This document shows positions 1,326-30,471 of a stretch of 30,471 nt of DNA, piece after piece (positions within the stretch are counted from its first letter, which is position 1; each line of letters starts with the position of its first letter). Where the stretch lies: positions 1-30,471 of the IMG/VR virus record IMGVR_UViG_3300043444_000316; one strand, given 5' to 3'. A program made the position numbers and the translations under genes. The DNA comes from a virus. Below the pieces are notes generated by a model that saw only the letters and a list, made by a program, of their open reading frames with translations, searched no databases and was not told the origin of the DNA.

Positions 1326-1787
1326 ATGAAATGGTTTCTTAACATGCTAGAACGACTTGGTCGCAAACGCATTGTAATGGACAGAATCAATAATGAACCT
1401 TATCTCGAACGCTACTACCTTTTTCTTAAGGATCGAAAGCACTTCCCCTTCAATGTGTTTCTTCACCGTTTCCTTAAATCAGATCCCGATGATGTGCATG
1501 ATCACCCATGGCCTTACGCAACGCTTATCTTAAAAGGTGGATATTATGAATGGATTCCACAATTTAATAGTAACGGTGAAAAAATTGGCGAAGTGGCAAA
1601 GTGGAGAGCTCCTGGTCATTTCCGTATTTGTCGCTCTACTAGTTATCACAGGATTGAATTAGATCCAGCTGTAGAATGTTGGACACTTTTTATGCCAGGT
1701 CCCCAAAAAAGAGAATGGGGATTTCTAGTTAAGAACAAATGGATACAACATGAACAATATCTCGAAAGTAGAGCAAAAAATGGATAA
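1326..1787 (+). CDS. Cupin-like protein, possible metal-dependent dioxygenase fold
   Basis: A 153-residue protein of unknown substrate. It has a cupin-type pattern: VHDHPWPY at residues 57-64 gives a His-X-His pair, Glu75 follows in GGYYEW, and a second half motif, SYHRIEL, gives His108. Together these would form a three-His plus Glu metal site like that of cysteine-dioxygenase-related cupins. The conserved-looking tail LFMPGPQKREWGF also fits a beta-barrel. AAGGAG at 1315-1320 supports the ATG at 1326. Its 3' end overlaps the next gene by 38 bases. Its place between folE and queE invites a role in nucleotide or pterin metabolism, but nothing in the sequence proves it. The fold call is moderately sure; the reaction is unknown. 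Confidence 0.65.
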   Translation: MKWFLNMLERLGRKRIVMDRINNEPYLERYYLFLKDRKHFPFNVFLHRFLKSDPDDVHDHPWPYATLILKGGYYEWIPQFNSNGEKIGEVAKWRAPGHFRICRSTSYHRIELDPAVECWTLFMPGPQKREWGFLVKNKWIQHEQYLESRAKNG

Positions 1788-2058
1788 AGTTACAGAAGAA
1801 GTCATGGACATTCTACAAGAAGAATGTGCCGAAGTTGTTGTTGCAGTAAGCAAGATCAGTCGATTTGGTATCGATAACTTTAAACCCGGCAAGCCTAAAA
1901 CCAATCGAGAACACCTCGAAGAAGAAATCGGTGATGTGCTAGCAATGATTGACATCTTACTTGAAAAGAATGTAATTTTGTTAGAACACTTAGAAGTTGC
2001 AAAAGCTGCTAAGATTGAAAAACTAAAACAATGGTCAAACATTTATGAGCAAAATTAA
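1750..2058 (+). CDS. MazG-like nucleotide pyrophosphohydrolase
   Basis: A 102-residue all-alpha protein of the MazG/dUTPase-C type, which hydrolyses nucleoside triphosphates to monophosphates plus pyrophosphate using Mg2+. The metal motif is visible as QEECAEV (Glu24, Glu25, Glu28) followed by EEEIGDVLA (Glu59 and Asp62), the usual EExxE...ExxD arrangement. The start is uncertain: the ATG at 1750 overlaps the cupin gene by 38 bases, and an in-frame ATG at 1780 (MDKVTEE) would overlap it by only 8. Either start keeps the catalytic motifs. In phages such enzymes may trim nucleotide pools or the alarmone ppGpp; which applies here is not known. The 3' end overlaps the short queE-like start remnant at 2045 by 14 bases. 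Confidence 0.8.
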   Translation: MNNISKVEQKMDKVTEEVMDILQEECAEVVVAVSKISRFGIDNFKPGKPKTNREHLEEEIGDVLAMIDILLEKNVILLEHLEVAKAAKIEKLKQWSNIYEQN

Positions 2059-2101
2059 AGTCGCAAGACTTTTTTATTCAACACATTTATATAGATTTTA
2101 A
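2045..2101 (+). pseudogene. Remnant or duplicate of the queE 5' end
   Basis: An 18-codon reading frame that begins MSKIKVARLFYST and then runs into a stop. The intact queE at 3021 begins MSKIKVAELFYSI. Eleven of the first 13 residues are the same, and the DNA differs mainly at synonymous positions (AGC/TCA, AAA/AAG, GTC/GTA, CTT/CTA, TCA/TCG). Similarity ends after about 13 codons, where endonuclease-associated sequence begins. Its ATG overlaps the end of the MazG-like gene, which looks like the ancestral translational coupling of that gene with queE. The best reading is that a homing endonuclease entered just inside queE and that a second, diverged start now serves the gene. It could still be translated as an 18-residue peptide. 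Confidence 0.75.
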
Positions 2102-2106
2102 TAATA

Positions 2107-2997
2107 ATGATAATTTGGCCTGTTCCGTTAGTAGAAGACAAGTATAGTCGATACTATTATCAGCTTGTTCTACGTGCTCAAAATAGAAAATTAGATGAGA
2201 ATACTTACACAGAAAGACATCATATTATACCCCGAAGTTTCGGTGGCAGTAATAATGCTGACAATTTAGTTAATCTAACTGCTAAAGAACATTATATTGC
2301 TCATGCTTTACTTTGGAAAATGAAATTTGATTCAGAGTATCATAGCAAAATGTCATATGCATTAAGGCTAATGATATTTGGCGCTGGTACAAAAAATCAA
2401 CTACGGAATTATAAATGTCATTCTAGAATATATGAAACAGTTAGAGCAGAATTTTCCGAAGCCCATTCGAAAAATATGTTAGGTGTTAATAATCCATTTT
2501 ATGGTAAAAAACATTCTCAGGAAAGCATTAACAAAGCTCTTCAAACTAAAAAAGAAACCGGGAATTGGGGTCATAAATTTAAAAAAGGACATAAACTTTC
2601 TAAAGAAACTATTCAAAAAATATCAATTGCTAATAAAGGCAGAACCTGGGATAAAATTTATAGTCCGGAAGAACTTGTAATTAAAAAACAACAAAGATCC
2701 GAAGAAACTCGAATTAGAAATACTGGACAAGTATTTTCGGAAGAAAGACGTCGAAAAATTTCAGAAAAGGCCAAAGGAAGAATTCCTCATAACAAAGGTG
2801 TTAAAGGAGTAGTAAAAAGATCTCCGGAAGCATCTGCTAAAAGACTTGCCACTATGAAAGCTAAAGGGATAACATCCCACAATAAAGTAATGAAGGTGTG
2901 CGAGCATTGTGGTAAAGAAGTAAAAGCAAATGTATATTCAAGATATCACGGCAACAAGTGTAAAACTTTACATTCTTTAGATAATATGTTAAACTAA
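2107..2997 (+). CDS. HNH homing endonuclease with NUMOD3 repeats
   Basis: A 296-residue site-specific DNA nuclease of the phage free-standing or intron-encoded type. The HNH core lies near the N-terminus: ERHHIIPRSFGG (residues 37-47), then NADNLVNLTAKEHYIAH (50-66), giving the His, Asn and His of the motif. From about residue 128 to 250 there are several NUMOD3-like DNA-binding segments, for example NPFYGKKHSQESINKA, KGHKLSKETIQKIS and FSEERRRKISEKAKGR. The C-terminus (about 263-285) has a small Cys-X2-Cys...His-X3-Cys zinc-knuckle-like element. The gene is visibly more AT-rich than its neighbours and has no good Shine-Dalgarno. It sits between a queE start remnant and the intact queE. The duplicated start argues against a spliced group I intron. 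Confidence 0.9.
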   Translation: MIIWPVPLVEDKYSRYYYQLVLRAQNRKLDENTYTERHHIIPRSFGGSNNADNLVNLTAKEHYIAHALLWKMKFDSEYHSKMSYALRLMIFGAGTKNQLRNYKCHSRIYETVRAEFSEAHSKNMLGVNNPFYGKKHSQESINKALQTKKETGNWGHKFKKGHKLSKETIQKISIANKGRTWDKIYSPEELVIKKQQRSEETRIRNTGQVFSEERRRKISEKAKGRIPHNKGVKGVVKRSPEASAKRLATMKAKGITSHNKVMKVCEHCGKEVKANVYSRYHGNKCKTLHSLDNMLN

Positions 2998-3010
2998 AAA
3001 TAAGATAATA

Positions 3011-3015
3011 AAGGA
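3011..3015 (+). promoter_or_regulatory. Shine-Dalgarno of the re-established queE start
   Basis: AAGGA lies 5 bases before the ATG at 3021. It lies in the AT-rich tract after the endonuclease stop and gives queE its own ribosome binding site, replacing the coupling to the MazG-like gene that the insertion broke. Confidence 0.7.
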
Positions 3016-3020
3016 TAAAA

Positions 3021-3869
3021 ATGTCAAAGATTAAAGTAGCAGAACTATTTTATTCGATACAGGGCGAAGGACGCTATATGGGCGTCCCTTCTGTATTTTT
3101 ACGCACCTTCGGGTGTAATTTTAAATGCCAAGGGTTTGGCATGCCACGAGGAGAACTAAGTAATGAAGCAGAAAATATTGACCCGTCTCTTTACACCGAG
3201 TACAAATCGCTTCCGTTGGTTTCTACAGGTTGTGATAGTTACGCTAGTTGGGATCCTCGCTTTAAGCATCTATCTCCCCTTCTTTCTACTGATGCAATTG
3301 CCGATGCTATTGTGGATACGCTACCGCACAAGGAATGGCGGGACGAACATCTCGTAATCACCGGTGGTGAACCATTGCTAGGTTGGCAAAAGGCTTATCC
3401 AGATTTACTAGACCACCCTAAGATGGCAGGTCTTAAAGAAATTACCTTTGAGACAAACGGCACTATGCGTTTAACAAGTGCGTTTAAAGAATACTTGATT
3501 AAATGGCAAATGCCTTTTTTAGAGTTCGATCGTGAAATTACTTTTAGTGTAAGTGCTAAACTTCCTTGCTCAGGCGAACCTTGGGATGATGCCATTAAGC
3601 CAGAAGTAGTTTGTGACTATGAAAACTACGGCACAGTTTATCTAAAGTTTGTTATTGCAACTGAACAAGACTTTGCAGATGCCGAATGTGCTATTGCCGC
3701 ATATCGCAAGGCAGGATTTAAAGGTCATGTCTATCTAATGCCAGTGGGCGGCGTTGAAAGTGTCTATGCACTAAACAATCGTAAGGTAGCAGACCTTGCA
3801 ATGAAACATGGATTAAGATATAGCGATAGACTGCAAGTTCCGTTATTTAAAAATGAGTGGGGTACCTAA
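3021..3869 (+). CDS. queE: 7-carboxy-7-deazaguanine synthase (radical SAM), phage form
   Basis: QueE converts 6-carboxy-tetrahydropterin to 7-carboxy-7-deazaguanine using S-adenosylmethionine and a 4Fe-4S cluster; it acts between QueD and QueC. Visible are the N-terminal AELFYSIQGEGRYMG (residues 7-21), FGCNFKC (30-36), GCDSYASWDPRF (70-81), the SAM-binding VITGGEPLL, and EITFETNGT. The cluster cysteines are Cys32, Cys36 and Cys71, so the second and third are 34 residues apart. Common QueE forms have only two residues between the last two cysteines; an insert of about 30 residues, starting QGFGMPRGELS, lies between them here. The length of 282 residues is longer than compact QueE enzymes. The stop overlaps the next ATG by one base. 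With folE upstream it points to preQ0-type modification of DNA or tRNA; the gene for QueD is not in the window. Confidence 0.9.
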   Translation: MSKIKVAELFYSIQGEGRYMGVPSVFLRTFGCNFKCQGFGMPRGELSNEAENIDPSLYTEYKSLPLVSTGCDSYASWDPRFKHLSPLLSTDAIADAIVDTLPHKEWRDEHLVITGGEPLLGWQKAYPDLLDHPKMAGLKEITFETNGTMRLTSAFKEYLIKWQMPFLEFDREITFSVSAKLPCSGEPWDDAIKPEVVCDYENYGTVYLKFVIATEQDFADAECAIAAYRKAGFKGHVYLMPVGGVESVYALNNRKVADLAMKHGLRYSDRLQVPLFKNEWGT

Positions 3870-4339
3870 TGTTAAAAAACTTTCTTAAAAAAATAACAGG
3901 TCTAGATGTTTTAGAAAAAGAAATTCAAAACGTAGAATCTAGATATCAAGAAGTGTTAGATAAAACTGCTCAAGCTGTTAGAGAACAGGTACGTGCAGAA
4001 CAGGCAGAAGAAGCGGCGAAAGAAGCTGAACGAGTTGCTAAACTAACTCCGAAAGAACGTGCAACAGAAGCCAAAGAACCTTGGGTAGCTGTATTGGATA
4101 CACATGTTAATAAAGAGAATGTCAAGAATGGTTTTTTCGAACTTGACTGGAATGAGTACTTTGTGCTACAATTAAAAGAAGCTGGCTACAAAGGTGACAC
4201 AGATGAAGCTGTTGTTGATCTTTGGTTCCAAGAACTATGTAAAAATGTCGGCGCCGAAGCAGGTGTTGATATGGAGCGTAGAGGCAGTGGATTCATCAAT
4301 GTTAATGATCTAGGTAATGGAAAGTCCGAGGTAAGTTAA
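3869..4339 (+). CDS. Coiled-coil protein of unknown function
   Basis: A 156-residue protein that I do not recognise. The ATG at 3869 overlaps the queE stop by one base (TAATG), and this is preferred over an in-frame GTG at 3857. Residues 1-70 are a highly charged helix rich in Glu, Ala and Lys, probably a coiled coil. Residues 75-156 look like a small alpha/beta domain beginning EPWVAVLDTHVN and containing FFELDWNEYFVLQLKEAGY and a Trp-rich VVDLWFQELCKNVG helix. No signal peptide or membrane segment is present. Its stop overlaps the start of the exonuclease gene by one base, so the three genes from queE on are translationally coupled. Confidence 0.7.
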   Translation: MLKNFLKKITGLDVLEKEIQNVESRYQEVLDKTAQAVREQVRAEQAEEAAKEAERVAKLTPKERATEAKEPWVAVLDTHVNKENVKNGFFELDWNEYFVLQLKEAGYKGDTDEAVVDLWFQELCKNVGAEAGVDMERRGSGFINVNDLGNGKSEVS

Positions 4340-15682: not shown

Positions 15683-17926
15683 TTAAGCCTTGATAATATA
15701 ATTCATTGCATGGAACGGAGGCATAACTGTTGTAACCATACCTGTTGCTGTTCCGCCAAACCCCGGTGTAGGATAAGGGAATTGTTGCGAGAACGATGTT
15801 GCAGTCATTGTAGCTGTTGTAGCTCCGCCAACTACCGGCGGTGCAGTTCCAATAGATGCACTATACGCATTAGGAGTAGTTGCTCCAACTACTCTGTTAG
15901 CAACTCCGCCGCTACTCAAGAATCCGTTAGTCATATCATCGTACCCGATGATAGTTCTTCCACGCATATCTGGAAGTCTAAACTGTCCATTAACTAATGT
16001 CTTGCCGTAAGTAAATCCGATTGCGGCAAATAATTCTGGGTAGTCGCTTCTATTAACGATAGAACCATCGCAGAACAACCAACCTTTGCTTAAAGTAGTT
16101 GCCGCTGCCGGCTTTTCTAATCCTGCATAAGGAACAATAGTACCAGGAGGTATTAAGAAGTCAAGTACGTCTTGTAATAGAGCATCTCGACTAGCTTTAG
16201 CTAGACCTGTTACACCAGTTCCGGATACAGTAACATATGATGCAGTAGTAATCGGAATACTTCCCAATACATTAACGCTAGGAACAGTAATGTCAAAATC
16301 GTTTATATTGTTAGAACCACCTAACAATCCACCCGGAATAGTTAGGACATCGTTTGCAACATAATTAGTTCCGCTGTTTGCAACTCTACTGATAAAGTAA
16401 CTACCGTTACTCTGTCGAACAATATCAAAATATGCACCGTTACCTGTTCCGCCATTAGCAGGAATAGATACAAAATTAACGGCACTAACTGCAACTAGCA
16501 ATTCGTCATTGGCAGACACATTAGTAACTGTGCTTCTGTTGGTAATTGCTTCTGCTTGAAGTTCAGTTACAAAGTCTTTAGGATCACCTGTACCATTGTA
16601 TGTTACACCTGCACTGGCAATATCGCCAGACATTGTAAATTGTGCAGAAGCAGATAATCTTGTGGCTACTGTCGAAGTCCCATCTAAGTTACCCTTGAAC
16701 ACTGCACTATGAACTTCTTTAAATGCCGAGCTTGTAGATCCTAATGTATAGACATTATGAACTAAAGGTTTAATAATTTCTTTAGAGAATAAAGCAGAAT
16801 CTGTAGTAGAGTTACCAATCTTTATTCCACCTGCAAATGTAGCAGTGGAGGAGAATGTAGCTGTGCTACCAAATGTAGTCGATTTGCCAAATGTTGCAGA
16901 TCCAGTAATGATCAATGCATCATTTGCATCAGTTGTAATTGTAATGTTTCCAGAAAATCTAGCATTGCCAGTGACATCTAAAGTATATTGAGGGTTAGTA
17001 GTGTTAATACCAATACGCTTATTCTGTCCGTCAATGGTTAAAATTTCATTGTAGATATCGCTCTCGTCGATTACTTGGAATCCAAAAGTACCATTTACCT
17101 TACTATTAACAAACTTATTTTTAAATGTACCTTCTTTAGATATTGAGAACGTAGGATCTACACCTAGTGTGATACCGTTCTTGGCATTAATAACTCCGCT
17201 AATAGAATTATCAATGTCGTTTCTAACAAAATAATTTCCGTTAATAACTGCTCTAACAGGAGTAGTTACTACAATGTTCTGTGCGGCATAAGCTGTTGCA
17301 TTTAAGATTGCACTATTAACTGATGTTAAGTTTAATCCAGGTTTGATAGCTTCAAAGCCGTCAATTTTAATCTGCGGAGTAAATTGATCAGGGCTAATAA
17401 TTTCAACAATTTCACCATCAACATAGTTTGCAATGATTTTATGATCAACACCAACTGTATCTTTTACTGTTTCCGGAATAGGACCAGACTTTGTGCCGCC
17501 GTCAATTGCAGGACCTACTAAAATCCAATCACCGTCAGGATTTTTTACCTTTAACTGATAAGAAACTGTATCGACCCAAATATCTCCAGTCACAGCTTCT
17601 GGTGGTTCTTCAGGCTCTTGATAAACGCCATTAATAGATTTCCAATTAGCACCGTTGGCAGTACCATCATTAACTTTTAGTTTATGATTCGCATTGTCAT
17701 ACCAAAGTTGTCCTTCAATAGGATTTGTAGGCGGAGTACTGTTAGCATGGTTTTCTAACAGATGTAAAAAGTTTGTGGAAATATCATAAGCATAACCAGA
17801 AGCGTTTTTTCCAACAAGCATTAAACTTGTAGAATAATTATTGCCCGGCGCTCCAGGTAGTCCATCATCAACTACAATAGCACTACTGTATTTGGTAGGG
17901 TCTGTAAAATAAACATTATATGCCAT
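15683..17926 (-). CDS. Fibre-like structural protein 4 with tail-collar domain
   Basis: A 747-residue protein, the longest of the four. The N-terminal domain shows SLMLVGKNASGYAYDISTNF, LHLLENHAN, IEGQLWYDNANHKLKV and VTGDIWVDTVSYQL. The middle (about 270-400) has INTTNPQYTLDVTGNARF, a fibre-shaft motif, and an Ala-Thr-Phe-Ser repeat (ATFSSTATFAGG). The C-terminus (about 590-747) is a phage tail collar domain: IPPGTIVPYAG, GWLFCDGSIVNRSDYPELF, GQFRLPDMRGRTIIGYDD, ending PPFHAMNYIIKA. In T4-like phages this domain is found in baseplate short fibres and related receptor-binding parts. A GGAG site precedes the ATG at 17926. Confidence 0.88.
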   Translation of the reverse strand: MAYNVYFTDPTKYSSAIVVDDGLPGAPGNNYSTSLMLVGKNASGYAYDISTNFLHLLENHANSTPPTNPIEGQLWYDNANHKLKVNDGTANGANWKSINGVYQEPEEPPEAVTGDIWVDTVSYQLKVKNPDGDWILVGPAIDGGTKSGPIPETVKDTVGVDHKIIANYVDGEIVEIISPDQFTPQIKIDGFEAIKPGLNLTSVNSAILNATAYAAQNIVVTTPVRAVINGNYFVRNDIDNSISGVINAKNGITLGVDPTFSISKEGTFKNKFVNSKVNGTFGFQVIDESDIYNEILTIDGQNKRIGINTTNPQYTLDVTGNARFSGNITITTDANDALIITGSATFGKSTTFGSTATFSSTATFAGGIKIGNSTTDSALFSKEIIKPLVHNVYTLGSTSSAFKEVHSAVFKGNLDGTSTVATRLSASAQFTMSGDIASAGVTYNGTGDPKDFVTELQAEAITNRSTVTNVSANDELLVAVSAVNFVSIPANGGTGNGAYFDIVRQSNGSYFISRVANSGTNYVANDVLTIPGGLLGGSNNINDFDITVPSVNVLGSIPITTASYVTVSGTGVTGLAKASRDALLQDVLDFLIPPGTIVPYAGLEKPAAATTLSKGWLFCDGSIVNRSDYPELFAAIGFTYGKTLVNGQFRLPDMRGRTIIGYDDMTNGFLSSGGVANRVVGATTPNAYSASIGTAPPVVGGATTATMTATSFSQQFPYPTPGFGGTATGMVTTVMPPFHAMNYIIKA

Positions 17927-18607: not shown

Positions 18608-20494
<1,887 letters not shown>

Positions 20495-20495
20495 A

Positions 20496-23400
20496 TTATT
20501 GCCCTACTAAAGGTTCTCCTGATTCGCTGTCTAGAGTATCACCGGTTTCTAGTACGATATACTGGTCGGTTGCGGTGTTCTGACCATAGTAATATTTATC
20601 TGGTAGGAAAGATGGTCTTTCTAACAAGAACTTAACTTGCTCAACATTTCTAATGTGAGCGTCAGAATATTCAAATCCTACTTCCTGTGAAACTGCTTGA
20701 ACTACTCGAACCTCTGCACCTACTGTAGGTGTAAAGTTTAAGCTGATAGCATTAGTTGCTGTGTTAATAGAAAATTCAGCTGTCAGCGCAACAAGTGTAG
20801 ATGTTCCTGCAGAATTTATATCTCCAGAATCGTAACCAATAGACACGTCTGTAATCTTATAAGTTGAAGTTGTATTCTTAACAGTCTTTACACCGTTATT
20901 AAACAAAGAAGTGTAGGTATCAGAAATTGGCTTTCTTAAAACTCTTCCTTGATAGATGACTTCAACTTGATCAAAATCTACAGTATTTTCAACAATAACA
21001 TTAGTCATTGTTAATAATGTATTAGTCGTACTGTTGATTACAAACTTATCAAGACGTTTAGTTTCACTGACAGGAATGTTTTGTCCATTCCCTTGATCTA
21101 AAACTACTGAACTTTCTTTGTGTAAAGTTTTTACACCAGTTCCTAATGTTCCCCTACGTAGCCAGCTTAGTTTATTACCTTCTAGTTTGTAGAATTCAAT
21201 ACGTTCTCCATCAATTAAGATAACTCCTGGACGATTCTTAGCATGGTTAGGTGGTGTAAGAACGCTAGCATCTTCAACAGTAATAAATGTATCTGTTGGA
21301 CGCAAGTCATCTGCTAACTGAGTTGTGTTTTCTTGGCTGATTCTCTTATAGTGAGTTCTACCAAGATTGTCATGGAATATTCTATAACCAATTAGTTTTT
21401 CACTAGTTTGATCAACAACACTCATAACAACTACTGTATCAGACGAGCGAAGTTTAAATCGCTTGTTAATTACAACCGTTCTTTGATCACTTTCAATTCT
21501 AAAATCAAACTCTCTAGTAATAGGTTTTCCATTAACTTCAACCCAAACATAATTGATATCAACAACTGTTCTGCTTAGTTTAAAGATGCCAGATGATCTG
21601 CCTTTGAAGCGTTCTCTTCTGAATAGACTGTTATCGTGGTTAGTAAATGATGTAACTTTGATAACACTAGCAGAGGAAACATCAACACGGTCTGTTAGAA
21701 CTAGTTGATTATTAACAACATAGTAATCGTGGTCTCTTAAGATTGTTATTGCCACAACATCAGAGTTAGACAATGCAGTTTCTGCAAAATCTACAGAATT
21801 ATTGTCTTGATTTAACTGTACTGATTGACTAAATGCAGTTCTTTGTCCATTTACATAAACTTCAAGTTTTGCTCTATCAGGTAGTCCTTGCGGATAGTCA
21901 ATGTGTTGATCTAGAGAGAAACTACGTACTCCGTTTGCAGCTGAATAATAAACTGTATCTGGAGGACTTAATCTTACACCATCACGTTCAACAATAATTT
22001 GACTGTGGTAAGGTTGAATATTGCCCGGAGCATAAGTTAATGTAAATTGGCTAGTTCCTGTGGTAGCAGATATAATCTGCTCTTGAACTTCGCTAAATGC
22101 TTTGTTGTCGCTAGCAAAGAACCAGACTTGTAACAAGTCTCCAACTGCTAAGTCAGTGTTAAATGTTACAACAACACGACCAGAAGTTCCAGACTTTTGG
22201 TTACCAGTTAAAGTGTAATCTGTTCGCTTGATACCATTAACAGTTACATAAGCACTATTAACATCAGCATAGTTAGATGCAAAATCAAACACACGCTGAC
22301 CGCTAGTATATGTAATAGGCACAGATGCTTTTTCTAAGAAATTCTTACCACCAACACTCATTGTTGTAATAGACAACAATTCCGGATCAGGGTTTTGATT
22401 TTTAAATGCATCAAAGCTACCTTGGCCAGCATACTGCCAGTTTCCGCCATTGCTGGTACTGTAGAATACATGACTTGTATTATTTTGAATATTAGCATCA
22501 TCTACGAAAATTCCAGTTCCTGGCACAGAACCAGAACGTCCGAGAGCAACACCTGTTACAAAGCCTTGATCTCCGTTGAAGTTAGTGCCTCTCCAGGTAT
22601 TTTCATAAATCATTTCAATGTACTGATTTGTACCATCGCTGTATAGTGTAACTTCATACTGATAAGCAGGAATAGAAGTAGTTCCTATTCTTTGATTATA
22701 GTGGCCGCCTTGGAAGCGTAGTCTCCAATAGACAAAGTTGCCAATTTCGCCGTTACTCAAGAACAATCCAGGAGTTTCTCCAGTGGATAACGGAATAGTC
22801 TGTCCAACACTGTTAGTTCCGTAATCTTGCCACAAGTCGCAATATTCGATATAGATTGCAGGGAAATCAATAATTCCCGGAACTAGCGGAGTCCAACTAT
22901 CGTCGCCGCCACCAAATGTTAAGTAACCGTTTGTACCAACATAGACTTCGTTGTATAATGTTCCAAACATGTTCCATGAGAAACCTAACGAGTACGGACC
23001 GGTATATGTATCATCGCCTGCGGTACTTGCAATTGGATTGTTAATGTTCTCACGTCTTGGAAGAACAGCAGCCGGACTAAAATACGGACCTCTTATACCT
23101 GCATAAGGATCATCAAGGAATACAACTTCGTTGGTTAGATAATCAATAGTGTAATCAACACCATAGGACAATAATCTGTTATTCAGTAGAACTTCTACAG
23201 ATTGATTGTTAGGCGGTGTAAATCCAATAGGATATCTATCAGTAAATGCATCTTTGAGATACTTCTTATTGATCATCAAGGCTGCACCAGACTTAGGATA
23301 GGTATAAACGTTTATGCCTAAACTGTCAGTAACTCTGCCTGGAAGATTTTCTTCTGGGCCGTAACTGTTAGTTGCACTAACTAAAGCATCACCGTCAATA

Positions 23401-26400
23401 TTAATATCTTCTAAGTCATCAGACTTAGTTAATTCCATTCTTCCATTGATGCTATCATAGTACCAGCCTGGACTATTAATACCATTAGGATTAATATAGG
23501 TGTCTAGATCTAAATCAACTACCGGAGCAGATCCGTCACTTGTTTCTAGCCTAAATAATACTCTATCATCGGAGTTGTAAATTTCTGCAACAGAAATTGT
23601 GCTAACATAACCGTTGCCAATAAAGACAGTTGCAGTAGTATCTACTCTAACAAATGTGTTAGAACCCGAATACTTAACATAGGCATTATAAACGTCGCCA
23701 TTAGCAGGAACAAATGGTAAAGTATAAACTAGCGGTGCAGGATTCACAAAGGCCAAACTAGTACCAGTAGCAACCCCAACCGGAGTATCTAGAACAACTT
23801 TCCATCGAGGATCAGTTTGATTTTCAATGTCTAAAGGAATAAAGGTCGATGATGTTACAGAATAAACTACTGTAGAAATAGTAACTGTAGATCCAACTTT
23901 TAAATTAACAATATCTTTATCTTCTGTTACATCAAAATAAAGAACTGTGCCTGCGCCAGATGTTGTATTTGCAGAAACAGTAGCAGTGATTCTTGGTCCA
24001 CGAGTTTCATATGATCCAACTTCAGGAACAAAATCATCCCAGTTGCTTTCACCGAATGGTGTAGAATCCCAACCTTTTGAAACTTCAAACGGTAGTGTAT
24101 CTATTGTTACGCCCGGATATTCTAAGCCATGCATTAATAGAGTAGCAGTATTGCCCGGCATTCCAGATGTAGGTGCATAGAAATCACGAATTCTATCAAC
24201 TGCATGATATAAAGAATGATCTTTTCTGTATTCGATAGTAATGCTAGATAGTTTTCTAGGAACGTAGCTTAAAACTAGTTTTCCAAACTGTTTAGAATAC
24301 CCATTAACTTTTTCAGTATATCGAACAATTTCGTAATCGCCAGTAAGTTCTCTAATGCCATTAACTCGAACAGTAATGTTATTCTTATCAGGATCAGGTG
24401 CCCAAGTTAATGCAAATTCTCTTGTAATACCGTTAGCAACATAAGAATCGTATGCTGTCGATGTTGTAATCTCATTGTAGCCAGAAACTCTGTCAAACTT
24501 CATAGTGATAGAGTTTGAGCGAACTAATCCGTTAGTCATTCTCGGAGCGACTCTTGCAGGAATTAGATCAGTAGGGCCGCCGCCAATTAGATTAACAACA
24601 GGTGTAGCTGTATATCCAGCACCTGGATCAGTAACAATAATTTGAGATACTTTTCCAAGAGCAATATAAGCAACTGCCTTGGCGCCGGTTCCAGTTGTAT
24701 CGCCTACCTGAGGCACTATTTCAACTACAGGAGGAATTTCATAACCGGATCCACCATCATACACATCAATAGATTCTAAGGAATAAGAATAATTCTGTAG
24801 CCAGTTCTTCCAAGGATATGTATTAAGTTCAGCACGACCAAAGGTAACTGGAACAAATTTTCCTTGACTTGAGCTATATGTAGAAGGCAGGTCAAAGTCG
24901 GTTATAACAGTCGTAGATAAATCTGTAGCTGTATAGTTGTTAGTAAAGTTTCTTATCTTAGTGTGATAAGGTTTTGTTTCATTAATATAGTCTTGGTAGT
25001 AAGACTCGTTGTTTAATTTATAAACAGGACGCTGGTCTAATGCACCTGCATAGTTATATACGTTAATGAACGATGTCTTAAATGCCCAGTCTAAGAACTT
25101 TTGTTCAGACATAGCATACTTGACTAACTTGAAGAACAGCTTGTTATAATAGACTTTTAGTGGTCCGACAAACACATCTTCTAGAAGACCGTAAATGATA
25201 TTTTCAGTTTCTTTAGCAGGATTTTGGTCGAACGCTGTTTGGTCCCAACCAGAAACTTGGTCCCAACCATAGACAGAATCTTTGTAGTTCCAAATAGCAC
25301 CGTCTATCTTAATAGTACCTTTTTCTTGGTAGATTAAATCATATTTGTCGTTAAATGTTCCTACACCAGAGTCTGCAGATCTACGGCGTAGAATAATGTA
25401 TCTGCCATCGCCGCCATTTCTAACTTTAATATAATTCCCAGCAGGTACAGATGCAACACTAGGTAATTGATAAGGTGCATCAATTGTAGCAATAATATCC
25501 TGTGCAGGATTGTATGTTGTATCTACCCAATCAATGTATGTCCAGAAGTCCTGTGTGTTAAATGATTGTGTATATTTTCTTAAGAATACTTTAGCATCAT
25601 AATCCCACTCGTATCGGCTCCAGCGACCATTGACTGTATCATCTGCTCGAACAATAACGCTAAACGGTCTTACTGTTAGAGTAGGTGCTGAAGTAAAATT
25701 CTTTCCTGTATTAACAACTGTAGCAGCAACAAGTTCGCCAACAATATTAACTTCAGTAGTAATTAAAGCTTCAACACCGTCACCTTCGATCACTACAGTA
25801 GGTCCAACATAAGTAGAAGTTTCTCCGTTAGATAGTGTCAAAGTCTTGTCTTGAGTACCGTACCCAAATCCAGGATTGTCAATTGTTACCGAATTAATTC
25901 TACCGTGTTTAATTGTACAGCTTAGGCTTGCCTTCTTAAGATTCCTTGTAACAATAGTAAAATCACGCTCAATTAAATCTTCAACAAGTACATCGTATGT
26001 ACCTAGTCTAGAATTAGGAATTTCATCTTTAGATAAGAATCTTTTTAAACTTACACTATCAACAATATTATTAGTTGCAAGAATAGAATTAGAATACTCA
26101 ACTAAAGTACGAAGAGCTCCTATTCTATCTTTAAACATACTTTGTCTAGGTCTGAAGCCAACTCCGTACTTTTGTCTATCAGACAACATAGGATCAGGTA
26201 CTGAATTACCTAGTATATCTTTGCCTAACAAGCTATCAATTGTTTTTCTAACTAACAGAGTATTTGGAACACTTGAAGCATTGCCATCCTGCAACAACAA
26301 CCATTCAGTGTGCTTGTTAGTTTCTTTGCCAGAAGAATCGATGTCAATAGAAAGGTTAATGGTTCTTCCAACTAATGAGCTTTCCATGTTTGTTAACATA

Positions 26401-29400
26401 ATTGCATTATCTGCAACCACTGATGCAAACTTAAGACCTTTAGCTTTAGGGTCTGCAATATAAGTTGCAACATCATACGCACTTAATCTTCTTGCAACAC
26501 CTTCCGGAACAGTTACTTTGTTCTTTACCCAATAGTAATAGACATTACTAAAAGAGTTTGAAATAGGATTCCAAACTTGTTTAATAGAAATAACAGAGTT
26601 ATCAGCAAACTTAGGTTGTCCGCTGATTCCTTGAGCTAGTCCTTCATTAGTGTCTGCTATTGCACTCCATTCGCTAGGCAAATATGTAGTTCTAACCCAT
26701 TCATACACATCAACCATTGAGCCAGGGAAAAGCGTATTCCAGCTGTTTCTTCTAAACTCAAGTTCTCCTTGTTCATACCATACATATTTGACTGAACTTA
26801 AATCCCACCATAGTTCGCCAACGTGTTCATCTAGCCAGTTATTGTTTGTATTCGCAACAACACCATTAATACCGATAGAATAAACAGCAGGGTCAAATAG
26901 AGATTTAAAACTCAACTCTTGATCTGCAAGTCCAGAAATTTTACCCTTTAGTGGATCAATTATTTCTAAGTAATCGACAACAATTTCTTTATCAACATCA
27001 ATTGTTCTAATAGTCTTAATGTTGCTTAGATCGACTAATGCTGTTTCTTTCCTAAACAATTTCCAACTACTTAAACTATCAGAATTAGAGTCATAGAAAT
27101 ATATATCTCCCATTTGAGAATTATCTTTGCTCAATCCAGGAGCGCCTACAATAACGCCTGTTTCAAATACAAACGAGCTGTTGCCGTATAATTGCCCAGG
27201 TGTCGATAATTGATTGTATAATTCTTCGCCGAAGACAAACTTAGCATTTTCTTTTACAAAGGTAAAGGCTGCTCCAGAATTCTTAATCGTTGAGAAGAAT
27301 CTTGTTGTATCAGAGTCAAAGGTAGTACTTGATTCTCTAGGAATACTACTTGTATCTAATACATATTTTTCTTTAGTACTGTCTTGTCTAGTATATGTAT
27401 CAAAGGATGCGAACGGCTTGTGACTTGACCCGGTGCTAGATATTATTAAAGTTTTTCCGTCAGGAGCAACATTAATTACACTACCAAAATCAAAACCGTT
27501 GTTAGTATAAGGATTGTCAATAACATGATCTAGCACATATTGGCCAGATGTTAGTTTTAGAACAAAAACTTTTCCTGTTCTTACTAGATTATCGCTCGCT
27601 TTAATCGCAGAAATAAACAAGTAATCGCCTGTTCTATCCATTGCAATACTTTCTGCAAAACCCGAACCTGGGCTAACAAAAGTTAAACCAGTGATAACTT
27701 GAACATTTGTATAAGTGTCGTAGTCACTAGAAGTATATACATAGACTGCGCCAGTAGAAGTTGTCCAGCCAGGAGCAGCTACAGCAACTCTAGATCCTGT
27801 ATAGTTACCGGCAATAGCGTGTCCAAAACGACTATTAGCAGTTAGTCCCGTTGCCGGCAATTCAATACTAGTGCTTGCAGTAATTGATAAACTTGCAGTT
27901 GTAATAGTGTCTATTACATTATGATATACTGCACCCACATCACTATCCTGACCAGGACTTGATACAAACACAATCTTAGAAGATGTTGATACATTGCCAA
28001 CAAAAATATCATGACCAAACTGAGCATTGGACTGCGGATCAGGGCTTGCAATAACTGTATCAAATAATTCTTCGTTATTATCAAAATCGTATCTAACAAT
28101 CTTAACTAGACCTTGTTCAACAAGTGCTGAAGTAGAAGAAGTTAAATTAACTGTACTAAATTTATTAGCAGAAGTTACATGTCTAACATAGGAAGCAGAA
28201 GGTGCTCCAATAAACACTAGACTGTTATCTTGGTCAAATTTAATTGCTGTTCCAAATAACGAAGAATTAGTTCCTGTGAAATATTTTTCAACTTTAGAAG
28301 GGTTAGGATTAATAATTCCTGCAGACAGTACATCGTCTTGTCCTACACCTGTTCTTTTGTATAGATAAACTCTTCCGTAAGAATCAGATAATCCTGCATC
28401 ATAGAAGAAGTTAGGGGACGATACTGCAAATTTATTTCCGTCGTCACTACCTGTTATACTATAACCATATTGTTGATTTTCACTTAAGGTATAGGCAACA
28501 TAAGGAGAACTGTATTCAAAAGAATTAAAGTTAGCAGACTTTTGATAGACCGCCCATTTACCCGAGCCGTCGTCATCAACCCATATTTTTTCGTCAGCTT
28601 CAAATCTATCAAGAGCAGCAGATGCTCTGATGTCGTCAAAACTGTTAAATCTTACATTAACAAATTTAAACAGAAGACCTACTTGAGGAACGAATGGTGT
28701 TGATAAGCTAGTTAATACAGACGGAATTACAAATTGATTTAAATTAACGATCTCATCAACAGTATAAACTCCGTCTAATTGAGGATCAAATTGGCTTATA
28801 CTAATAATATCGCCGACTGATAAATTATGTCTAAACTCGGTAGTAATTAAAACACTAGCTCCAGGGCTATAGACGCTAGCATCAGTAATTCGAGTAGTAG
28901 TTTGAGTATAGCGAACAACTTCCCAGCTGCCGTTTGGAAGGAATCCAATCCAAACAGTGTCGCCGTCTTTCAACGAACGGTTATTAGCAATGTCTAATAA
29001 GCTGTCTCTATTAAAGGCTGTGGCAGTAACATCATCAAGTCTTACATAACCTGCAGAAGGTAAAATAGCGACACTGTCTGATAACAGTGTGCTAGTTGTA
29101 AGGAAAGGACTACTGTTATAATCTTTTGGCTTAATAACAATTCCGTCCGGAGTCTCATAACTGATAAACTCGTTAGGTTCAACTGGACTAGCTTCAACAA
29201 ACTCAATTAGTTGAGGATTTTCTTTAAACTTTAATTCGTCAAGAGTAAATTCAAGTGTTTCACTGTTAGCAAACGCACCAAAGTCTCCAACTCTAAATGC
29301 CCAGTCTTCGTAGTAATCAATGTATCCGCCTTGAGATACAATACTAGCTTTAGCTAGTTTGCTGATTGTGTTTTTAGTACCTTTCTCTTTGATATAACCT

Positions 29401-30471
29401 TGATAGAATTTGTACTGACTAGTTGCATTTGTAAAGATATTGTCAAGATAAGTTCTTGGGCTATATCCAACTAGGTGTTGTGCAAGAGCCTGTTGGCTTG
29501 CATCAAAGTTGTCAATATCAAGACTGTAGAAATCTTCAAACTGTCCAATCTTATAATCAAAGTTAGGTAGCAGTTCTGCAACAGGCTTGTTACCTAATAC
29601 ATTCCATTCGTTGAAGTTAAATTCTTCAGATCCTATTGTTTTGGAAATAGCAGAATAATAATTGCCTGCATAGAAAACAACGTCGCCTGTAGAGTAGTCT
29701 GTATATTTTTCCCAATTAGAAATTTGTGCTTCGTCGTAGATGAATCCGGGACTGAACATGTCGCCGTTCCATCCAGCTGTTATAAATCCTAGAAGTTTAA
29801 TTCTACGTTGGCGATATCCTGTTTCAGGATCGTAAATAACATCATTAAACAACGAAGAGTTGTTTAAAATCAATGTATGTTCTTTTTGTACTAGATTTAT
29901 TCTAACAAAATAAATTCCGTCATTAGTGTTAGATGTCTTAACAACAAAAACATTTTCATCACGAGCAGTTGAAATGTTCTTACTTGACATAACAGTACCG
30001 TCTGCTCGTAGCACACTGTAGTCATAGAAAATATTAGTTAAACTATCTGCAACTGCGGTAGAATCTTCAAACTTTAAAGAGTTAGCGAACGGGCTTAGTG
30101 TAATAACACTACCTGTTGCCCACTTTTGTGTTGTCCAGTATAACGCTTCTTTAGAAGAGAATGTCCAGTCAATAACTTCAGTAAGTTCTTTGTTGTATTC
30201 GTCAAAAATACAACCTTGACTTTCTAGCCAACGACCATACCCGAGAATTACTGCATATAAGTCTTCAACAGAAGTATATTCAGTTCCATAAGAAACTTCG
30301 ACTGGAGTTTTACTAAACTTAGAAGGACGGCGTACAGAAACACCGCCTACTACAGGAAGAGCAGGCAATGGTTGAAACTTAGTTAGGTCAAATGATTGTC
30401 CAGAATTATGTCCAACTTTTGTTCTATAATATTTGCCGAGATATCTAACAACTTGTCCTTGCTTATAGTAT
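20496..30471 (-). CDS. Giant multidomain virion protein (over 3,300 residues), 5' end outside window
   Basis: The frame is open to the window edge. The first base pair of note, a TTG at 30368, is not a credible start, because 34 further codons upstream stay open and read on smoothly ([13 protein letters not shown]). Residue numbers below count from 30368. The edge segment and residues about 217-262 ([16 protein letters not shown]...W) share a short aromatic module like carbohydrate-binding ones. Residues about 630-1095 hold seven FG-GAP-like blades. Near 1490-1590 and 1866-1925 are G-x-GY strand repeats. About 2440-2620 is nidogen-like ([22 protein letters not shown]). About 2660-2960 has repeated V-x-VNG units. 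Near 2993 begins another beta domain ([13 protein letters not shown]). There is no enzyme motif. It is probably a baseplate or fibre component that contacts the host surface; the precise role is unknown. Confidence 0.85.
27085..28480 (-). repeat. Seven FG-GAP-like blades within the giant protein (probable beta-propeller)
   Basis: Seven successive units of about 60-70 residues have the pattern (F/Y)G-x-(S/A)(I/V)...D-G...(V/I)-(F/A)-(I/V)-(G/S)-(A/S)-P...G-x-(V/I)-(Y/F). Core examples are KFAVSSP, LVFIGAP, IVFVSSP, RVAVAAP, YLFISAI, TLIISST and GVIVGAP. The unit number and total length fit an integrin-alpha-like seven-bladed propeller. Confidence 0.65.

Follow-up and report, generated by a model that had tools for sequence, protein, structure and literature searches.

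A Homing Endonuclease Gene between Two Starts of queE in a Viral Genome: Probable Replacement of the Target Gene's 5′ End by a Mobile Element

INTRODUCTION

Why would a virus carry the start of one gene twice, with a nuclease gene in between? The question is raised by a 30,471-base virus record (IMG/VR IMGVR_UViG_3300043444_000316), analyzed here as a whole and called the window, in which a mazG-like gene, a homing endonuclease gene (HEG), and queE follow one another. A first-pass annotation of this DNA had placed one queE-like start at ATG 2045, overlapping the end of the MazG-like gene at 2058, and a second start at ATG 3021, all of which we recover. It had also suggested that the endonuclease was inserted just inside queE and that the gene was rebuilt behind it from a diverged copy. 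That suggestion is strengthened by the results presented here, since the arrangement recurs in eight other queE loci and at two other genes. We conclude that the window probably contains a homing element that targets queE and replaces the 5′ end of its target gene.

RESULTS

Two starts of queE flank a homing endonuclease gene

All parts of the locus lie on the plus strand. The MazG-like gene (1750 to 2058; Pfam MazG, 2.8e-6; PHROG 4856, 5.1e-22) overlaps the first of the two starts by 14 nucleotides (nt), including its own stop. The frame found there, MSKIKVARLFYSTHLYRF, opens at ATG 2045 and runs on to a stop at 2099 to 2101; homology to queE covers about codons 1 to 14 (2045 to 2085), and this part is the remnant of the original start. 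The intact gene, encoding the radical SAM enzyme 7-carboxy-7-deazaguanine synthase, begins at ATG 3021 (MSKIKVAELFYSIQGEG...) and is full-length at 282 amino acids (aa) (3021 to 3869; PHROG 2076, 1.1e-53; the NCBIfam QueE models match it under their cut-offs). As had been noted earlier, it has a ribosome site of its own, a Shine-Dalgarno AAAGGA at 3010 to 3015 within the leader ATAATAAAGGATANAA (3005 to 3020).

Over their first 42 nt, the two starts are identical at 31 bases. Six of the 14 codons are the same, five differ synonymously, and three change the residue (R/E, T/I, and H/Q). The claim that the copies differ mainly at synonymous positions thus holds for five of the eight changed codons; the three missense changes show that the 2045 copy is also decaying. 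The pair of starts is absent from the list returned by a repeat finder over 1500 to 4000.

The gene between the starts (2107 to 2997) encodes a predicted free-standing homing endonuclease, which by its HNH motif and NUMOD3 repeat fits the MobE-like HNH/NUMOD3 class. The NUMOD3 match (1.7e-11) is over its cut-off, the HNH_5 match (1.2e-5) is under the curated one, and PHROG 655 matches at 1.6e-47; phage matches include the mobE genes of T4 and Aeh1.

The upstream start is the old one

The first-pass annotation had proposed comparing the mazG-queE junction with that of relatives lacking the endonuclease. Nine relatives with no nuclease match (L013, L021, L023, L024, L044, L050, L062, L065, and L066) start queE at the same mazG overlap, with a gap of -10 in all of them, and their junction sequence is that of the window or a close variant of it. 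L044, whose queE is uninterrupted and overlaps mazG, is the closest, matching the 2045 copy at 35 of 42 positions and the 3021 copy at 33 of 42. Because these nine nuclease-free relatives start queE at that overlap, the junction sequences identify 2045 as the ancestral start, now broken after about nt 41, and 3021 as the newcomer. We also scored the flanks of nucleases for a duplicated gene start. The window's flank-duplication score is 52, compared to 95% null values of 39 (81 loci) and 37 to 42 (117 distinct loci).

The same arrangement recurs at queE in other phages

A stub, a nuclease or putative nuclease ORF (open reading frame), and an intact queE whose rebuilt 5′ end is recoded mostly by synonymous changes are found in eight other distinct queE loci (L279/L300, L283, L292, L296, L297, L299, L320, and L326), which makes nine with the window. 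L320 sits on the contig of L242, and both L320 and L326 came from later scans. L324 and L325 were counted as recoded-start loci by an HEG score and spacing equal to those of L326.

Full queE-like starts numbered 217 (173 distinct; 144 with 700 nt or more of upstream sequence), and short frames resembling a start numbered 12, seven of them distinct. All seven distinct stubs (window, L279/L300, L283, L292, L296, L297, and L299) are separated from the gene by a nuclease or putative nuclease ORF, and all seven precede a queE start with a TCA serine codon. Both starts in relatives without the endonuclease, the case that the first-pass annotation had named as speaking against its reading, did not occur among them. 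Seven in 173 is not a frequency, because most of the stubs came from the scan for recoded starts (27 contigs; 18 distinct recoded loci, counting earlier loci and the window). Before that, 168 distinct starts had been sampled, not all of them with much sequence upstream, and a look-alike preceded four of them: L279, the window, L267, and L164. A pattern scan for the window's own broken start gave no matches. L267 and L164 were dropped as unrelated frames that share only MNKLKI with queE.

All of the breaks fall within codons 12 to 24. The stubs of L283, L292, L297, L299, and L326 break at about codons 20 to 24 and are followed by a common border, TTCTAATTCTGCTTAACAT, and a MobE-like HEG. L300 breaks at codons 15 and 16 and carries an endonuclease VII-like ORF (PF02945, 9.1e-24), and L296, broken at about codon 12, carries an ORF that we call ORF216. 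ORF216 is also found between the HEG and queE in L283, L299, and L242, and a 3′ scrap of it is left in L292 and L297. Direct scans gave no significant family match for ORF216 itself, and its structure prediction had a mean predicted local distance difference test score of 33.8. A match to phrog_314, "homing endonuclease" (2e-10 to 1e-15), was seen for three of its five scanned relatives (L231, L272, and L161) and not for the other two (L042 and L321).

The first-pass annotation had further described the outcome as a translationally coupled gene made into an independently initiated one. This fits the window, where the HEG ends 23 nt before the rebuilt ATG, but it is not general: six of the eight other loci (L283, L296, L299, L300, L320 via L242, and L326) have a rebuilt ATG that overlaps the end of the nuclease or ORF216 in front of it, at the stop codon. 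The ATGTCAAAGATTAA start in fact supplies the stop of the overlapping upstream ORF (NVKD*). In L292 and L297, respectively, 189 and 185 nt separate the end of the last complete nuclease ORF from the rebuilt ATG, which only a truncated ORF216 frame reaches.

Recoded 5′ ends and gene bodies have different histories

The search pattern that defined the recoded group spans nt 1 to 47 and was drawn partly from the window. Identities were taken in 18-nt bins over nt 1 to 108, of which only the bins past nt 47 escape the bias of this pattern. Mean pairwise identity was 0.97, 0.94, 0.91, 0.87, 0.89, and 0.83 for 16 recoded genes (window excluded), compared to 0.77, 0.74, 0.80, 0.78, 0.76, and 0.81 for 153 other genes. 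From nt 126 on, it was 0.58 to 0.72 for the recoded genes and 0.54 to 0.69 for the others.

The recoded label needs 13 changes on a tree built from the gene body, compared to a mean of 14.84 and a minimum of 12 in 200 shuffles, and a single recoded clade is rejected (approximately unbiased test, P = 4.8e-53; 87 rows, quick tree). The same label changes once on a tree of nt 1 to 108 and five times on a tree of nt 49 to 108. Of the 18 recoded starts, 16 have switched codon box at four serine/arginine sites, as has 1 of 160 others. At the sites free of the search pattern, Arg18 is AGR in 16/18 recoded starts (36/160 others) and Ser24 is AGY in 17/18 (69/160 others). As a group, then, the recoded queE genes have 5′ ends and bodies of different histories; for the window itself, this is only suggestive.

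Two otherwise near-identical loci, L292 and L300, allow a closer look. Upstream, 576 nt are 98.6% identical between them, and identity is 98.5% over nt 150 to 1000 from the queE start; yet they carry different nucleases, inserted at different codons. Their queE genes are identical over nt 1 to 44, differ at 25 of 127 positions in nt 45 to 171, and differ at 7 of 678 in nt 172 to 849. L173 has an empty site with an uninterrupted standard start and is 92.5% identical over nt 150 to 1000. The stubs of L292 and L300 match L173 at 61/69 and 43/46 positions, and their rebuilt starts match it at 48/69 and 31/46. The simplest reading would be two separate insertions, with an exchanged 5′ tract of as much as about 170 nt.

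The window resembles an eroded element

How does the window relate to these elements? Its HEG is 76% identical over 291 aa to the HEG at the same gene in L283 (nonsynonymous divergence [dN], 0.16; synonymous divergence [dS], 0.96) and about 33% identical to those of L299 and L292. A first scan with the window HEG missed these closest relatives, which were met later beside recoded queE genes. A further relative (60%, best segment) stands before a peroxiredoxin-like gene, named by eye, in L319 (5001 to 6269); with a relative at another site, the HEG lineage therefore also occurs elsewhere.

The 16 nt before the rebuilt ATG, ATAATAAAGGATANAA, are present in 22 of 401 loci, all of them recoded-start queE loci or copies. 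When 173 leaders were ranked against that of the window, the nine best after the window itself were element leaders (16/19), and the best leader of an ATGAGY-type start reached 13/19. A 34-nt element leader-and-start pattern is absent from the window at up to 3 mismatches; the shorter leader pattern is present. The stretch matching the window leader is, in L283-type elements, the 3′ end of ORF216. We infer that the leader at 3005 to 3020 is a scrap of a lost ORF216, and given this resemblance the element seems to have brought the new queE start with it. The window thus looks like an eroded L283-type element that lost ORF216 between the HEG and queE.

The tract presumed to have been replaced in the window is short (3021 to 3062); from about nt 43, the gene is like standard alleles. 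Among the 16 genes nearest to the window queE, 10 are recoded when nt 1 to 42 are compared, a count biased by the search pattern, and none when nt 43 to 108 are compared. Our reading is that at most about 42 nt were rebuilt.

Two other genes show the arrangement, and 12 T4 HEGs do not

Besides queE, the duplication test pointed to L121/L125 (among 81 loci) and L113 (among 117 distinct loci). L121 and L125 agree at 1,700 of 1,700 bases. In L125 (3170 to 7496), a GIY-YIG/NUMOD3 enzyme stands between a 25-codon stub and a complete 1,144-aa gene for DNA polymerase III (Pol III) alpha (TIGR00594). The stub breaks a few codons past the HAHS motif; its last 14 codons compare to the rebuilt start as 3 identical, 10 synonymous, and 1 nonsynonymous. 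In L113 (2651 to 4559), a GIY-YIG enzyme follows a stub that breaks off at the Walker A motif and precedes a dnaX-like gene (TIGR02397, 5.5e-92 on the first 300 aa), and 36 codons compare as 13 identical, 14 synonymous, and 9 nonsynonymous. Both genes show the same architecture as queE.

One T4 record served as a control; none of 12 free-standing HEGs in it is flanked by a gene-end duplication of this kind. Their highest scores were 38 (mobB), 40 (segG), and 41 (segB), with a 95% null value of 38 and a null maximum of 53, and the peptides aligned for these three do not resemble copies of a gene start. The queE cases score 52 to 121 in this test, and the T4 HEGs score at most 41.

Further loci with scores over the 95% null values were set aside. 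The repeat of L375 (4714 to 6525), a stretch that stands before the HEG and again further downstream, is noncoding and matches at 50 of 63 nt over the part compared. In L379 (4400 to 5858), a 45-nt gene tail is present on both sides of an HEG (41/45), possibly a 3′-end counterpart. L106 scores 57 in the 3′ test, and others over the 95% null values score 41 to 47. In phage T4 itself (L396, 23071 to 23456), alt.-1 and alt.-2 are described in the record as an old duplication of the beginning of alt; the annotation shows no nuclease at this place, but the pair could be the scar of a similar event.

Cultured Vibrio phages

Relatives of ORF216 (34% identity) are found directly before queE in four Vibrio phages (D486, D527, K566, and K567); in D486 and D527, the ORF216-like gene overlaps the queE start by 10 nt. 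The related Vibrio phage D485 (L399, 2746 to 3864) lacks such a gene before queE. Comparison of D485 with D486 (L397, 2282 to 3867) gives 242/243 identity for the gene upstream and identities of 20/30, 23/30, and 30/30 for the first three 30-nt bins of queE. The first 57 nt contain 8 synonymous and 2 nonsynonymous codon differences and one added codon. D485, with its empty site, and D486 are a cultured pair in which the idea is testable.

Neighboring genes in the window

A gene for GTP cyclohydrolase I (FolE; 363 to 1058) is close to queE, as in 7-deazaguanine pathways. At the other end of the window, the minus strand holds one 3,290-aa reading frame (20496 to 30368), adjoining a collagen-like repeat protein, named by eye (18608 to 20494), and a tail collar protein (15683 to 17926).

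DISCUSSION

The stub, the nuclease ORF, the recoded start, the separate histories of 5′ end and gene body, and the repeated cases are all read directly from the DNA. One can picture from them how such an element might move. In a mixed infection, the endonuclease would probably cut the conserved queE start, at about codons 12 to 24, of an uninvaded phage genome, and repair would copy in the donor nuclease gene together with the donor's own queE 5′ end. The old start of the recipient would stay upstream as a broken stub, and the working queE would be a chimera of donor 5′ end and recipient body. Spelled with synonymous codons, the donor 5′ end would escape cutting. Introns, inteins, and HEGs sitting in their own site are protected by the insertion itself, whereas the rebuilt queE start is not. 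The rebuilt gene restores an uninterrupted target, and therefore the difference in sequence, rather than the insertion, must give any protection. The cleavage site, homing in mixed infection, and the resistance of the recoded start are thus what we infer by comparing sequences.

Several observations weigh against a homing element of this kind. Among the 18 distinct loci with a recoded start, a nuclease or ORF216 precedes queE in 9, none was seen in 7 (L162, L282, L284, L286, L288, L294, and L302), and the upstream sequence is too short in 2 (L291 and L298). L162, with no nuclease beside queE, even shares an exact 25-nt leader-and-start stretch with the window, although over the longer leader the two match at only 14/19 positions. 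L281, L321, and D486 have such an ORF before queE and no coding stub; in D486, the break lies in the leader, and the queE genes of D485 and D486 differ elsewhere too. For the window, the short rebuilt tract matches the nearest recoded starts at 36/42 positions, only two of the four codon-box switches are present, and no near-identical empty-site relative was found among the compared loci, the nearest queE being about 82% identical. For the group, the pattern covered nt 1 to 47, and therefore the similarity there and two of the four codon-box switches arise by construction; on the body tree, 18 of 200 shuffles give 13 or fewer changes, and mild clustering is possible. Finally, the duplication score of the window is below the maximum of the T4 null, and single null pairs reach 53 in T4, 100, and 121 (the last probably pairs of queE loci). 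With such null maxima, the score alone is not decisive, and it is the position of the junction that decides.

The alternative that survives best is a variant of the reading we prefer and is compatible with its homing part. The element would home and replace the start, but the recoding would simply reflect how far the donor allele had diverged and would be retained for the sake of translation (ribosome site and stop overlap), not for resistance. That the ATGTCAAAGATTAA start gives the overlapping ORF its stop, and that the window chiefly keeps this part, fits such an explanation. We consider it unlikely, given that high identity in the recoded group extends to about nt 108, beyond the break points, that the Arg18 and Ser24 preferences fall outside the search pattern, and that recoding is also seen in the dnaX-like and Pol III alpha starts.

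Ordinary recombination between divergent queE alleles might instead have joined a nuclease to a foreign start, leaving the nuclease a passenger and not the driver. The recoded starts with no adjacent nuclease in 7 of 18 loci, the stretch that L162 shares with the window, and the mosaic structure elsewhere in queE of the Vibrio pair would all be expected. Passenger recombination does not readily account for seven of seven distinct stubs preceding a nuclease or putative nuclease ORF, for breaks confined to codons 12 to 24, for the near-identical L292 and L300, whose queE loci are set apart chiefly by nuclease and 5′ tract, or for two further genes with the same arrangement, and we find it improbable.

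A nuclease ORF between two copies of a gene start might also suggest a group I intron, or some other spliced element, that joins the first codons to the downstream gene. The first-pass annotation had thought this less likely, and we now regard it as very improbable: there is no Rfam match in the window from 1700 to 3400 at E ≤ 1 or in six relatives at the gathering score, the 3′ side carries a full start and ribosome site, and the stub, which contains missense changes, ends at a stop codon of its own. Insertion into an intergenic gap, with a chance resemblance of the 2045 frame to queE, can practically be dismissed; the frame is short and the duplication score is within the largest null values, but the 31/42 in-frame identity falls exactly at the mazG/queE junction of relatives, and longer stubs occur in relatives.

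If the window is indeed a homing element that replaces the 5′ end of queE, it may not be alone. We see an even chance that phages harbor a general, unrecognized class of such elements, in which free-standing homing nucleases of several unrelated families insert within the conserved coding sequence near a gene's start and bring along a recoded 5′ end of that gene, which provides both rescue and resistance, as natural home-and-rescue drives. Successive nucleases would compete for one gene, and its 5′ end would be exchanged again and again. A free-standing homing gene could then enter conserved coding sequence with no splicing and without killing the gene, and mosaic gene starts in phages would have a directed cause, one that cultured phages allow to be tested.

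Such elements would also provide a natural precedent for gene drives with a recoded rescue. In engineered home-and-rescue and Cleave-and-Rescue drives, the rescue copy is recoded. As at queE, the nuclease of the engineered drives (PMC7968924 and PMC7951863) is linked to a still-working version of the target; these drives are man-made, whereas the queE elements are natural and carry the gene start only.

Among known phage systems, co-conversion of flanking sequence is described for the free-standing HEGs of T4 and for MobE of T4 and Aeh1 in the passages drawn on here (PMC2988022). As presented there, these insertions are intergenic or split a gene, whereas the window HEG, although MobE-like, lies beside a duplicated start. 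Nor is the window a gene in pieces of the Aeh1 nrdA type, since a full-length 282-aa queE stands downstream and not one of two complementary parts. A survey of HEGs (PMC10448857) yielded no passage on rebuilt gene starts with the terms tried, and the titles and abstract openings of the matches listed among open PMC papers contain no description of the 5′ phage form.

The mirror image, replacement of a 3′ end, is already in print for fungal mitochondria and yeast, as far as the portions of the two papers used here go (PMC3630166 and PMC7282813). In Allomyces (atp6) and Glomus (atp6, atp9, cox2, and nad3), mobile endonuclease ORFs are reported to carry foreign gene C termini (PMC3630166). As at queE, the target end is duplicated and has diverged mostly synonymously, and the old end remains; unlike at queE, it is the 3′ end that is replaced, and the ORF at atp6 is of the LAGLIDADG family.

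The closest parallel may be the WHO elements at FBA1 of Torulaspora and Lachancea yeasts, of which the queE elements, if our reading is right, would be the bacterial-virus counterpart; HO arose from the WHO elements. According to the sections consulted (PMC7282813), the endonuclease gene lies beside its target gene, each homing event is proposed to give the target one end from a resistant allele and to leave the old end as a fragment, and several elements can stack at one gene. We likewise find a fragment of the old end beside the nuclease and, for the recoded group, a replaced end with a separate history. Family scans of the window HEG, which included no direct comparison with WHO proteins, returned homing/HNH endonuclease and NUMOD3 families and no HO or intein family, and do not suggest membership in the WHO gene family by descent. 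The WHO enzyme is an intein-derived, HO-like zinc-finger protein, whereas the phages use HNH/NUMOD3, endonuclease VII-like, or GIY-YIG ORFs or ORF216, and cleavage has been demonstrated for WHO (PMC7282813), while the queE elements are known from sequence. WHO replaces the 3′ end of its target; the queE elements would replace the 5′ end, together with its ribosome site and start codon.

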